Shown one piece after another: positions 16,608-20,270 of a DNA stretch of 64,000 nucleotides. A program made the position numbers and the translations under genes. Location: positions 310,001 to 374,000 of the forward strand of contig CANMWQ010000003.1 in assembly GCA_947501685.1 (NCBI GenBank), written 5' to 3'. The notes beneath the pieces were generated by a model. That model saw only the letters and a list, made by a program, of their open reading frames with translations, did not search any database and had not been told where the DNA came from. The DNA comes from an uncultured Litoreibacter sp. (GTDB lineage: Bacteria > Pseudomonadota > Alphaproteobacteria > Rhodobacterales > Rhodobacteraceae). Numbering within the stretch: position 1 is the first letter of the stretch; every line of letters begins with the position of its first letter.

Positions 16608-17123
16608 ATGGCTGATGAAGTAAAATCCCTCGACGATCTCAAAGACGTCGTAGACACCACCGAGCTTGCAGAAGCGGCCCCGACAGCTGCGGAAGAGGTT
16701 TCGGCTGCGATCACACGCGAACCTGTGCGCGACGCGCTGGGCCGTGCCTATGCGACGGGCAAACGGAAAGACGCGATTGCACGTGTCTGGATCAAGCCCG
16801 GCTCCGGCAAGGTTGTGGTAAACGGCAAAGAGCAAAACACCTATTTTGCCCGCCCCGTTCTGCAAATGATCCTGCGTCAGCCTTTCACCGTGTCTGGCAC
16901 CGAAGATCAGTTCGACGTCATGGCCACGGTCAAAGGCGGCGGTCTGTCGGGTCAAGCTGGTGCGGTCAAACACGGCATCTCGAAGGCGTTGCAGCTCTAT
17001 GATCCATCCCTGCGCGGCGCGCTAAAAGCGGCAGGCTTCCTGACCCGTGACAGCCGCGTCGTTGAGCGGAAGAAATACGGTAAGGCCAAAGCGCGTAAGA
17101 GCTTCCAGTTCTCCAAGCGTTAA
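16608..17123 (+). CDS. rpsI: 30S ribosomal protein S9
   Basis: A 171-residue S9. The conserved core starts near residue 47 ([20 protein letters not shown]) and ends with the basic tail RKSFQFSKR, which reaches toward the P-site tRNA. An acidic N-terminal extension of about 45 residues (rich in Glu, Asp and Ala) precedes the core, as is usual in alphaproteobacteria. The gene is followed by a hairpin terminator into which an IS has been inserted. Confidence 0.98.
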
Positions 17124-17145
17124 GCTTACCGACATATCAAATGAA

Positions 17146-17171
17146 AAAGCCCGCTCCTTTGAGCGGGCTTT
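17146..17171 (+). terminator. rpsI terminator hairpin, left copy
   Basis: An 11-bp perfect stem (AAAGCCCGCTC / GAGCGGGCTTT) with a CTTT loop, 22 bp after rpsI. The IS begins immediately after it, so its original T tract is now beside the right copy. The same 26-bp sequence recurs at 19132-19157. Confidence 0.85.
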
Positions 17172-17186
17172 CAGACCACTGACAAA
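17172..17186 (+). repeat. Left terminal inverted repeat of the IS
   Basis: CAGACCACTGACAAA, perfectly complementary to the right end. Confidence 0.9.
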
Positions 17187-17229
17187 GCAGCTAAGGTACG
17201 CTGCCTAGATCTGCTCTATCGCAAGGGTT

Positions 17230-17535
17230 TCAGGACTTAAGTTGATCTGCGCGCATCGAAGCACGGAATTCAGTGATCGTGTATTCGGCCAATTGTCGTT
17301 GTTTGAACGGGTCGGTTTCCAGAACTTCTTCGAGATCGGTTCTCGTTTCCGCAGTTGCGATGATCACGCCCCCTGTCCGTGGCTCTTTTGGCCCTGATGC
17401 GATAAATCTGCCTGATGCATAATTCTGTTCAAGAAATTCGACGTGTGCATCTAGCGCGGGCTCTATGTCCTCAAAAGGCGCGATGTAATGGAGGTCTACG
17501 ACGAAGAAGTTCTGATCTGAAGGTATTGTAGGCAT
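17230..17535 (-). CDS. YciI-family protein carried inside the IS
   Basis: A 101-residue protein starting MPTIPSDQNFFVVDLHYIAP. The layout FVVDLHYIAPFEDIEPALDAHVEFL, FIASGPKEPRTGGVIIA and DPFKQRQLAEYTITEF matches the YCII domain (about 95 residues), a ferredoxin-like fold with a conserved His/Asp pair. The start was chosen at the ATG at 17535; the frame extends to 17586. It lies between the left inverted repeat and the transposase gene, transcribed away from the latter. It has no evident role in transposition, so it is best called a passenger. Some family members act as dehydrochlorinase- or lactone-processing-like enzymes, but no reaction can be assigned. Confidence 0.8.
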   Translation of the reverse strand: MPTIPSDQNFFVVDLHYIAPFEDIEPALDAHVEFLEQNYASGRFIASGPKEPRTGGVIIATAETRTDLEEVLETDPFKQRQLAEYTITEFRASMRADQLKS

Positions 17536-17669
17536 TTTGTCTTTCTCAATTGGGTGCTTGGCAGGAAGTCTGGGCACGTGTCGCACTATTCGGACCGATA
17601 AACAACGATGGCTTCGGAACCAGAAATTGTGCGCTTGATCCGCAGTGGGCTACCTGATTCAACGTTGTT

Positions 17670-19037
17670 ATGTTGAAACATCCTACTTCCCGCCAGACCG
17701 AGCTTGAGATGGTCACGCTTGAAAGTCTGGTTCCTGCCGATCATCTGCTGCGCAAAGTCGATGCCGCGATTGATTTTGGCTTCATCCGCGATCTTACCGA
17801 GGGACTGTACTGTCCTGACAATGGCCGCCCGCCTATTGCGCCAGAGGTTTTGTTCAAGGCCCTGTTCATCGGCTATCTGTTCGGCATTCGCTCGGAACGT
17901 CAGTTGATGCGCGAAATCGAGGTGAATGTGGCCTATCGATGGTTCCTCGGATTGCGCCTGACGGACAATGTGTTTGATGCCAGCACCTTCAGCCAAAACA
18001 GGCGGCGGCGTTTTGATGGAACTGATATTGCCCAGAACATCTTTGACCACATTGTCGAACAGGCCATTGCGCAGGGGCTTGTGGATGGCACTGTTCTTTA
18101 CACTGACAGCACCCATTTGAAAGCCTCAGCGAACAAAGGCCGTTTTGATGTGGAACTGGTCGCCAAAAGCCGTGCCGATTATTGGGATGCATTGGATGAT
18201 GCCGTAAGCACGGATCGTGCTGCCCATGGCAAGAAACCCCTGAAGCCCAAACCGCGCGAGCCTCAGATCAAGGAAACCAAGATCAGCCGTACTGATCCTG
18301 ACGCGGGGTACATGGTGCGAGATGGCAAGCCCAAAGGGTTCTTCTATCTTGATCACCGCACGGTAGACAGCAGGCACAACATCATCACCGACACCCACAC
18401 AACAGCAGGCAATGTGCACGACAGCATTCCCTACCTAGGCAGACTGGATCGTCAGAGAGAGCGGTTCGATCTGGATGTTAAGGCCGTTGGCCTTGATGCA
18501 GGCTATGCCAGCGCACCCATCGCCCAAGGGCTGGAAGAACGTGATGTATTGGGAGTGACAGGCTACCTACGCCCCTCGGATCGCAAGGGCATGATGCGCA
18601 AGCGCGAGTTCACATATGATCGTGACGCGAATGTTTACCGCTGCCCCGAAGGGCAGGCTCTACCTTATGCCACCACGGACCGTGAGGGCTACCGCCACTA
18701 CAAAAGCGACCCAGCCAAGTGCGGAGATTGCCCTTTGCTGGCGTCTTGCACAACCAACCCAAAGGGGCAAAAGACCCTCAGCCGTCATGTCTGGGCTGAT
18801 GCACGGGAACGCACTGATGCGCACCGCCTGACAGACTGGGGCAAACGTATTTACGCGCGACGAAAGGAAACAGTCGAACGCTCATTTGCAGATGCCAAGC
18901 AACTCTTCGGACATCGATACGCCCGTTATCGAGGGCTCATTGGTGCCAAATGGCAATGCCTGCTCGCCGCAACCGCCCAGAACATCAAGAAAATCGCAAC
19001 AGTTATGCATGCAAGACGCAAAAACAGCCCCGCATAA
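17670..19037 (+). CDS. IS1182-family transposase
   Basis: An intact 455-residue DDE transposase. The N-terminal DUF772 region (LVPADHLLRKVDAAIDF, FKALFIGYLFGIRSERQLMREI) precedes the catalytic triad: Asp146 (LYTDSTHLKAS), Asp276 (VGLDAGYAS) and Glu403 (ETVERSFADAKQLFG). A Cys cluster (CGDCPLLASC) sits between the second Asp and the Glu, as in IS1182 members. There is no frameshift, so it is probably active. Confidence 0.95.
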   Translation: MLKHPTSRQTELEMVTLESLVPADHLLRKVDAAIDFGFIRDLTEGLYCPDNGRPPIAPEVLFKALFIGYLFGIRSERQLMREIEVNVAYRWFLGLRLTDNVFDASTFSQNRRRRFDGTDIAQNIFDHIVEQAIAQGLVDGTVLYTDSTHLKASANKGRFDVELVAKSRADYWDALDDAVSTDRAAHGKKPLKPKPREPQIKETKISRTDPDAGYMVRDGKPKGFFYLDHRTVDSRHNIITDTHTTAGNVHDSIPYLGRLDRQRERFDLDVKAVGLDAGYASAPIAQGLEERDVLGVTGYLRPSDRKGMMRKREFTYDRDANVYRCPEGQALPYATTDREGYRHYKSDPAKCGDCPLLASCTTNPKGQKTLSRHVWADARERTDAHRLTDWGKRIYARRKETVERSFADAKQLFGHRYARYRGLIGAKWQCLLAATAQNIKKIATVMHARRKNSPA

Positions 19038-19091
19038 CGGGCTGAGGCGCGCTCGTGCACAAAACCCATCGCCAAATCACCGACCCAAAGT

Positions 19092-19119
19092 AAAGCCCCG
19101 CCAAAATATGACGGGGTTT
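19092..19119 (+). terminator. Terminator-like hairpin at the right end of the IS
   Basis: AAAGCCCCG pairs with CGGGGTTT around an AT-rich loop, overlapping the start of the right inverted repeat. It probably ends transposase transcription. Confidence 0.6.
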
Positions 19120-19131
19120 GTCAGTGGTCTG
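19117..19131 (-). repeat. Right terminal inverted repeat of the IS
   Basis: TTTGTCAGTGGTCTG, the complement of the left end. Confidence 0.9.
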
Positions 19132-19160
19132 AAAGCCCGCTCCTTTGAGCGGGCTTTTTT
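19132..19160 (+). terminator. rpsI terminator, right copy with T tract
   Basis: The second copy of the 26-bp hairpin, now followed by the full T run at 19155-19160. Before insertion it would have been the single rpsI terminator, and it still separates the IS from the convergent sulfonate operon. Confidence 0.85.
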
Positions 19161-19181
19161 CTTGGAGTTTTGCAAAAGGGG

Positions 19182-20270
19182 CTATCGCAGCGTGGTCATG
19201 CCGGTTTGCGCCATGGCAATGCTCAGCTCGTCGCTAAATACGTCCCATAACTGGTTCAAACCCGCCTCGCCCCCAGCCGCGATGGCAAATTGCAGGACTC
19301 GTCCGAAAAAGGCGAAATCTGCACCCTGCTCCAGGGCCTTCAACACATCCTCTCCGGAACGCAGCCCGCTGTCGAAAAACAGCGGGAAGTCCTCCCCAAC
19401 CGCGGCCCGGATTTCGGGCAGCATCGCAAAAGGAGACGGCGCGCTTTCCAATTGGCGCGCACCATGGCTGGAGACCTGAATGGCGTCCACGCCCTGCTCT
19501 TTCAACGCGCGGGCGTCGTCTGGGTCCAACACGCCTTTCACCACCAGCTTGCCGGGCCATGCGTCGCGCATCTGCTTGAGCGTGTCCCAATCGGCGCGCG
19601 CTCGGCTTTCGGTGCGGTCAAATTCGTATCCCTGCATCTCGAAATTCGCCATCTGGGGCTTCCCGGCAAAGAGCGAGGTCAGCGACCAGCGCGGATGCAG
19701 CGCGAAGTCCACAAATTGCTTGGGGCCAATGCGAAACGGCATCTTGAACCCATGGCGCAGCTCGCGCGGGCGGCGGCCCACTTCGGGCACATCAACGGTG
19801 AGCACGAGCGCCTCATAGCCCGCCTGACGGGCGCGTTCGACCAGCTTAAAGGTCCCTGCCCCGTCGCCGCTGAAATAGATCTGGAACCATGCATGCCCCT
19901 GCGCCACTTCGATGATCTTCTCAAGCGGCGTCGAGGCCACGGTCGAGACCCCATGCGGCACCTTATGACGCGCGGCTAGCCTGGCCAGCATGAGATCCGC
20001 TCCGGGGCCGGACAGGTTGCACATGCCCATCGGAGCGATACCGAAGGGGCGCTCGGCCTGCGTGCCGAAGATGGATTTGCTCAAAGAGCGCTGGCTGACA
20101 TCGCGCAAGATACGTGCCCGCAATGTCATCGCGTCAAGGGCCGCACGATTGCGCGCGGCCCCTGTTTCGGCCCCGGCGGAGCCATCAATATAGTCGAACA
20201 CCATCCATGGCAGCCGACGCTTGGCCAGACGGCGGGCGTCGGCGGCGGAGTGGATCGCGCTTGCCGACAT
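19182..20270 (-). CDS. FMN-dependent alpha-hydroxy acid dehydrogenase (candidate sulfolactate dehydrogenase)
   Basis: A 362-residue protein of the lactate dehydrogenase/glycolate oxidase family. It shows FDYIDGSAGAE near the start, IAPMGMCNLSGPGAD, FQIYF, LTVDVPEVGRRPRE, VVKGVLDPDDA, the catalytic His/Arg stretch VSSHGARQLES and the FMN phosphate segment FDSGLRSGEDVLKALEQGADFAFFGR. Its start is adjacent to the comE stop, as last gene of the sulfonate operon. Oxidation of 3-sulfolactate to sulfopyruvate, the step feeding ComDE, is therefore the likely job, comparable to SlcD of roseobacters. That assignment is inference from position. Confidence 0.85.
   Translation of the reverse strand: MSASAIHSAADARRLAKRRLPWMVFDYIDGSAGAETGAARNRAALDAMTLRARILRDVSQRSLSKSIFGTQAERPFGIAPMGMCNLSGPGADLMLARLAARHKVPHGVSTVASTPLEKIIEVAQGHAWFQIYFSGDGAGTFKLVERARQAGYEALVLTVDVPEVGRRPRELRHGFKMPFRIGPKQFVDFALHPRWSLTSLFAGKPQMANFEMQGYEFDRTESRARADWDTLKQMRDAWPGKLVVKGVLDPDDARALKEQGVDAIQVSSHGARQLESAPSPFAMLPEIRAAVGEDFPLFFDSGLRSGEDVLKALEQGADFAFFGRVLQFAIAAGGEAGLNQLWDVFSDELSIAMAQTGMTTLR

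Follow-up and report, generated by a model that had tools for sequence, protein, structure and literature searches.

This study examined a locus in an uncultured Litoreibacter sp. where a small gene for a YCII-domain protein lies between the ends of an IS1182-family insertion sequence (IS), raising the question of whether the gene moves with the element or belongs to the chromosomal site. The window, that is, the whole stretch of DNA analysed, is 64,000 nucleotides long, and all positions below refer to it.

Structure of the element

The features of the locus are as follows.

16608-17123: rpsI, ribosomal protein S9 (204 bits; cut-off 112)
17146-17171: left target-duplication copy, the 26-bp palindrome AAAGCCCGCTC-CTTT-GAGCGGGCTTT, the rpsI terminator hairpin
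17172-19131: whole IS1182-family element, 1960 bp, a single unit with 15-bp inverted repeats
17172-17186, forward strand: left terminal inverted repeat (IRL), 15 bp, CAGACCACTGACAAA
17187-17632: cargo segment, 446 bp, 49.8% G+C
17230-17535, reverse strand: passenger gene for a YCII-domain (YciI-like) protein, 101 aa (open reading frame and Pfam)
17633-17669, forward strand: transposase leader, the start of the stretch common to this element and its relative L036
17670-19037, forward strand: intact IS1182-family transposase, 455 aa (open reading frame, Pfam, and NCBIfam)
19038-19116, forward strand: right subterminal region, whose internal hairpin immediately precedes the right repeat
19117-19131, reverse strand: right terminal inverted repeat (IRR), 15 bp, TTTGTCAGTGGTCTG
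19132-19157: right target-duplication copy, 26 bp, followed by the native T run
19182-20270: FMN-dependent dehydrogenase gene, convergent with rpsI (PF01070, 1.7e-117)

An earlier, sequence-only reading had described perfect 15-bp inverted repeats enclosing an intact IS1182-type transposase and a divergent YCII-domain gene, and each part of this description was confirmed. TTTGTCAGTGGTCTG is the exact reverse complement of CAGACCACTGACAAA, and the match ends after 15 bp. Both frames are open, and Pfam recognised the transposase (DDE_Tnp_1_6, 3.6e-27; DUF772, 5.1e-25) as well as the passenger (YCII, PF03795, 1.4e-12). The transposase scored 484 bits against the NCBIfam IS1182 equivalog NF033551, for which the cut-off is 270. 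The passenger frame read from a GTG start covers 17586-17230 on the reverse strand and encodes 118 aa, and the ATG at 17535 gives 101 aa; the shorter form is matched by a relative in locus L004, whose ATG-start frame also encodes 101 aa. No Rfam family reached its gathering score within 16900-19400.

A search of the 3.3-Mb genome with a degenerate inverted-repeat pattern, TTYGTCAGYRRTCTG, returned only the two ends of the element, and the reversed-pattern control returned none. The genome holds one copy of the element DNA and not the two IS copies that would surround the cargo of a composite transposon. A transporter IS, in the ISfinder concept, is an IS with a passenger gene unneeded for transposition, and the YCII gene at 17230-17535 is such a non-transposition gene between both repeats. 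The unit at 17172-19131 is a cargo-carrying IS1182-family insertion sequence with a real passenger.

Probable insertion into the rpsI terminator

Identical hairpins stand outside both ends of the element, a feature overlooked in the first reading. Each is 26 bp long with a perfect 11-bp stem, the copies abut both element ends exactly, and the hairpin matched only these two positions in its own genome at E 0.001. The loops of the two copies read in the same direction, which indicates a direct duplication.

The rpsI locus was then compared among 20 other genomes of the genus, two of which were informative on the empty site. In G410 (L092) and G404 (L091), rpsI is followed by one homologous hairpin and the same dehydrogenase gene, for which the nearest NCBIfam model was L-lactate dehydrogenase, below its cut-off; neither genome has the IS or YciI there. 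The other 18 were uninformative on the empty site, since the dehydrogenase gene did not appear in the roughly 1.5 kb of flank retrieved. YciI was not seen at any of the 20 rpsI loci. The single hairpin in G410 and G404, with neither IS nor YciI, suggests that the IS and YciI most likely arrived in one insertion, which duplicated the terminator in full. Comparison also shows that both neighbours, rpsI and the dehydrogenase gene, keep a predicted terminator. The earlier proposal that the passenger lies inside the mobile unit is supported by the single 26-bp duplication that brackets the whole, by the two empty sites, and by the lack of YciI at the 20 other rpsI loci of the genus; the passenger thus appears to move with the element, as judged from one copy.

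Hairpin duplication among relatives

The flank survey comprised 70 entries, namely the window element and 69 loci with a transposase relative. A left repeat (at most 4 mismatches) was recognisable in 68; L043 and L183 lacked one and were dropped, and L032 had no right flank. The results revealed that a hairpin (stem score of at least 6) abuts the left end in 61 of the 68 loci, compared with 114 of the 4200 positions drawn at random from these loci, so that palindromic targets were found in the group as well as in the window, with its perfect 11-bp stem. The seven left flanks with stem scores below 6 were L031, L048, L060, L062, L064, L073, and L187.

Both flanks were readable in 33 elements, which are partly non-independent (one-genome sets L033/L034/L037, L040-L042, and L149/L151-L153). 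An exact duplication of 13-28 bp was present in 22 of the 33; 21 of these duplications contain a hairpin (stem length 7-11 bp), the other being a 13-bp duplication in L048 without a scored hairpin, and 20 abut both ends, with L113 and L181 off by one base. Stems scoring at least 6 occurred on both sides in 30 of the 33 elements. No matching duplication was found in 11 (L031, L035, L036, L038, L040-L042, L121, L149, L185, and L187).

Several alphaproteobacterial elements in the survey (L030, L033, L113-L118, and L179-L181) are simple IS1182 elements with 67-74% transposase identity to the window element, repeats like those of the window (CAGACTGCTGACAAA), and the same hairpin duplication. They differ in lacking cargo and in having IRL 53-54 bp upstream of the transposase, with a hairpin immediately internal to the repeat. 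Two of them, on Aminobacter plasmids (L117 and L118), struck the same kynU/ABC-transporter terminator, one strain carrying the insertion in the opposite orientation to the other and both showing a 20-bp hairpin duplication, which marks the terminator as a repeat target. Genes on both sides were annotated in 13 of 15 plasmid copies examined and were convergent in 10 of those 13. IS1182 copies are described as over-represented between convergent genes (PMC9208149), an excess that fits terminator targeting.

Two irregular arrangements were also observed. In Dechloromonas denitrificans (L040, L041, and L042), the flanking hairpins of three IS1182 copies are swapped in a ring, as recombination among copies or wrong assembly joins would produce. 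In one Sneathiella metagenome bin, six contigs (L058, L063, L065, and L067-L069) end about 80 bp into the transposase with differing hairpins, probably because a multi-copy IS1182 element broke the assembly.

Whole-hairpin duplication appears to be common among the relatives of the window element. It does not seem to be general for the IS1182 family, because ISPse1, an alphaproteobacterial IS1182 element trapped in Paracoccus, is tabled with the entries 16/16 and 4, which we read as an apparent 4-bp duplication (PMC3281130, tabulated entry).

An exchangeable cargo slot

The distance from IRL to the transposase ATG is 53-102 bp in 64 of the 68 loci. It is 498 bp in the window, 461 bp in L036, 1912 bp in L029, and 1161 bp in L187. 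Locus L187, which was counted among both the 33 and the 68, combines its 1161-bp leader with 4 mismatches and no duplication; its left end was probably misassigned, so it was not called a cargo element. The window element, L036, and L029 form one clade (support 94/98), within which the window and L036 group together (100/98).

The window element and L036, which comes from an Octadecabacter metagenome bin, share 92.8% DNA identity over 1499 bp, from element position 462 to the right end. This identity starts 37 bp before the ATG, and leftward of that point only the terminal repeat is alike. The window cargo segment (17187-17632) showed no similarity to the same slot of L036 or L029. The slot holds YciI antiparallel to the transposase in the window, a parallel 72-aa DUF6500 gene in L036 (PF20110, 3.3e-29), and a parallel gene for a 539-aa protein in L029 (Aliiroseovarius); the last had no family match in Pfam or NCBIfam, and a plasmid search at E 1e-5 gave no relative. 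G+C content is 49.3-50.2% in the three cargo segments, 54.5-56.4% in the three transposases, and 60.6% in the window. Transposase dN/dS values of 0.02/0.26 (window and L036) and 0.12/1.38 (window and L029) indicate constraint on the transposase.

An exact 18-bp hairpin duplication surrounds the element L029 with its own cargo, at the exact ends. Since the window element and L029 each have one matching duplication, two kinds of cargo are each enclosed in a unit of this sort. In L036, the left and right hairpins differ, and IRL is unlike IRR at 3 of 15 bases; this metagenome contig may be recombinant or chimeric and was excluded as evidence of movement.

The 37 bp before the transposase contain TTGATC (17635-17640) and TTCAAC (17658-17663), 17 bp apart and 6 bp before the ATG. 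The arrangement TTGATC-17 bp-TTCAAY, six bases before the ATG, is kept in the three intact clade members (window, L036, and L029), and the simple elements, as read by eye, have the hairpin just inside IRL in its place. Judged by its motif, this pair is a candidate transposase promoter and would imply a leaderless message. Between cargo and transposase, the best inner match to an old IRL was 9 of 15 bases, a value reached by 162 of 300 shuffles; with no IRL remnant detectable beside the transposase, the capture route left no direct trace.

G123 was considered as a fourth cargo member and rejected: its transposase is internally deleted, and no correctly oriented IRL (at most 3 mismatches) occurs in the 5.5 kb before it. 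The sequence at L188 5507-6053 in G123 is a relic of a close relative, with an intact right end and a differing promoter-like pair.

The comparison of the three intact members shows that the slot, which extends from IRL to the last approximately 37 bp upstream of the transposase, is occupied by a different, unrelated single gene in each. These findings suggest that the clade of the window element has an exchangeable cargo slot and that YciI is a real passenger but not the defining gene of the element. The earlier view of YciI as part of the element thus stands in that the gene lies inside the mobile unit, but not in that it belongs to the element as such, for the nearest relatives carry other genes there and YciI is one cargo among several.

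Search for further copies and origin of the cargo genes

The sequence-only reading had expected further copies of the 1.96-kb unit with YciI at the same position. None was found, the own genome having one copy and the 393 other family genomes none. Relatives of the element ending inside YciI, which that reading had named as contrary evidence, were not seen either, although the searches turned up no YciI-carrying relative of any kind.

A DNA search of 294 other family genomes gave matches in 21 at E 0.001, mostly short pieces or YciI alone, the G123 relic being the only close DNA relative. The transposase protein had no match at E 1e-120 in 393 other family genomes. It matched in 5 of the 20 other genus members (31-36% identity), in 4 of 18 others of the genus of G414 (28-48%), in 7 of 20 others of the genus of G413 (29-47%), and, in the genus of G123, in G123 alone. 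Among 388 other relatives, two matched at E 1e-100 (70-73%), namely G503, whose copies are simple elements, and a second with a partial match. These genome samples overlap. Viral contigs yielded 2 short fragments, and plasmids yielded 291 records at E 1e-100 (best 73.4%), 15 of which were examined. No further intact cargo element was found in the genomes, plasmids, and viral contigs searched. L029 and L036 came solely from a contig scan (49 loci) that needed an exact short peptide match, by which relatives may be missed.

Relatives of YciI (E 1e-20) occur in 14 of 394 family genomes, including its own. Identity to the window YciI is 59-70% for the five nearest others and 42-51% for the other eight. 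Around these 13 relatives, which belong to 13 other genera, the best candidate for an IS1182 end within the fetched 3.3 kb had 3 mismatches in 15. The window YciI retains His31 and Asp75-Pro76, invariant in 14 aligned homologues; a His and an Asp of this kind are what we take to be the proposed active site of the YciI family. Against five chromosomal relatives, dN was 0.22-0.37 and dS was saturated (1.7-3.2), a pattern suggesting that YciI was under selection for most of its history, a reading that applies to the time before its capture. The search for YciI relatives with a solved structure gave none at E 0.1. A YciI match on a Paracoccus plasmid was set aside because the record is unannotated at that position.

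No cargo matched defence genes in PADLOC or phage genes in PHROGs at E 0.1. DUF6500 relatives were present in 80 plasmid records; in the two of these 80 that were examined, no IS1182 gene was annotated beside DUF6500. On one small Acinetobacter plasmid (L162 2311-2544), DUF6500 lies beside a toxin-antitoxin pair.

Discussion

Taken together, the findings make it highly probable that the window holds a cargo-carrying IS1182 element in the rpsI terminator, that the hairpin was duplicated, and that the clade has a slot with exchangeable single genes. Three other explanations were weighed against this reading. YciI could be a host gene of the locus, with a simple IS inserted beside it and a coincidental left repeat. 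The gene is transcribed away from the transposase, and some relatives in other genera lie outside IS elements, as expected of a host gene. However, the 26-bp duplication lies outside YciI and not between YciI and the transposase, YciI is absent from both empty sites, the repeat pattern is confined to the element ends in this genome, and the cargo segment has 49.8% G+C in a window of 60.6%, so that this explanation is hardly credible. Somewhat less remote, yet still improbable, is that YciI became enclosed when the same terminator or its vicinity was hit by two separate IS1182 insertions, that the left IS was mostly lost, and that the unit is an immobile leftover. The differing hairpins of L036, the 3 of 15 bases by which its IRL departs from its IRR, and the flank exchange visible in Dechloromonas are compatible with such a history, but the hairpins of the window element and L029 are identical left and right and stand at the exact ends, which is unexpected from independent insertions, and the IRL and IRR of the window match perfectly.

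The remaining alternative makes YciI a stable, selected component of the IS lineage, for example one aiding transposition or the host, with the other cargos as side-line replacements. It can draw on the intact YciI frame, on the retained residues invariant in 14 homologues, and on a dN well below dS against five homologues, with dS saturated. Nevertheless, the two nearest known relatives (dS 0.26 for the closer) contain other genes, and no second YciI-carrying copy was found; we consider this alternative unlikely, albeit the least unlikely of the three.

The closest known parallels to a cargo-carrying element with an exchangeable slot are IS1272 and TnSha1 of staphylococci, which insert into hairpins, several of them terminators, and in the cases described in the consulted portion of PMC4923244 remove part or all of the target hairpin without duplicating it. 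TnSha1 has three IS1272 repeats (PMC5678879, in the part describing its structure). The window element shares with them an IS1182-family transposase, hairpin insertion, and a single extra gene on the left (metabolic in TnSha1), which is delimited by the outer left repeat IRL' in TnSha1 and likewise by the outer IRL in the window. In contrast to TnSha1 and IS1272, the window element has a complete hairpin on both sides, and unlike TnSha1 it has no detectable inner IRL and belongs to a clade with at least three unrelated cargos. In the model proposed for IS1272, the hairpin is recognised by its structure and not its sequence; both outcomes are drawn, but the cases of that study are hairpin loss (pathway a), with duplication (pathway b) given as a possibility only (PMC5678879, passages on the model). 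The window element and its duplicating relatives fit pathway b.

Some IS1182 members target palindromic sequences according to a 2015 review, as cited in the consulted portions of PMC4923244 and PMC5678879. For an IS1182-like transposase in Thermoanaerobacter, an alternative end was proposed, and the repeat was not found at the observed junction (PMC12056078, in the excerpt consulted). Among the literature titles and abstract openings listed, full texts aside, none concerned an IS1182 element that duplicates a whole hairpin or one that carries YciI. Relative to the transporter IS concept, the passenger of the window differs between very close relatives, in the same slot of the three members seen. 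IS1182 carriers with a single extra gene are already known (TnSha1), and the apparent differences here are hairpin duplication and exchangeable cargo.

A plausible mechanism would begin with a transposase that recognises the hairpin as a structure, either a cruciform or a single strand. If the element ends were joined at the 5' foot of each stem, single-strand repair would duplicate the stem-loop, whereas joining at the 3' feet would lose the hairpin. Cargo could be swapped if IRR and the transposase paired with a different, further-out IRL, supplied by the end left by another IS1182 copy or by a look-alike as in TnSha1, and recombination between copies would shuffle cargo combinations. The promoter-like pair in the retained 37 bp might keep the transposase expressed whatever the slot holds. 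The routes of hairpin recognition and joining and of cargo swap are both inferred from these comparisons.

Whole-terminator duplication together with a cargo difference between near-identical elements is noteworthy. The survey provides many natural examples of whole stem-loop duplication, which earlier work on a structure-targeting DDE transposase had only sketched as a possible outcome, and places them next to the hairpin-deleting relative IS1272, so that the choice between duplication and deletion becomes testable with two related enzymes. Elements roughly 2 to 3.4 kb long would carry single genes from place to place and exchange them, a gene-transfer route easily overlooked because the cargo resembles an ordinary chromosomal gene beside an IS. 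We propose tentatively, with somewhat less than even confidence, that this IS1182 lineage is a minimal gene shuttle consisting of a fixed module (its own promoter, the transposase, and the right end) and a one-gene left slot. Such a shuttle would land in terminators, rebuild the terminator on both sides, and carry single host genes while leaving operons intact and avoiding read-through.
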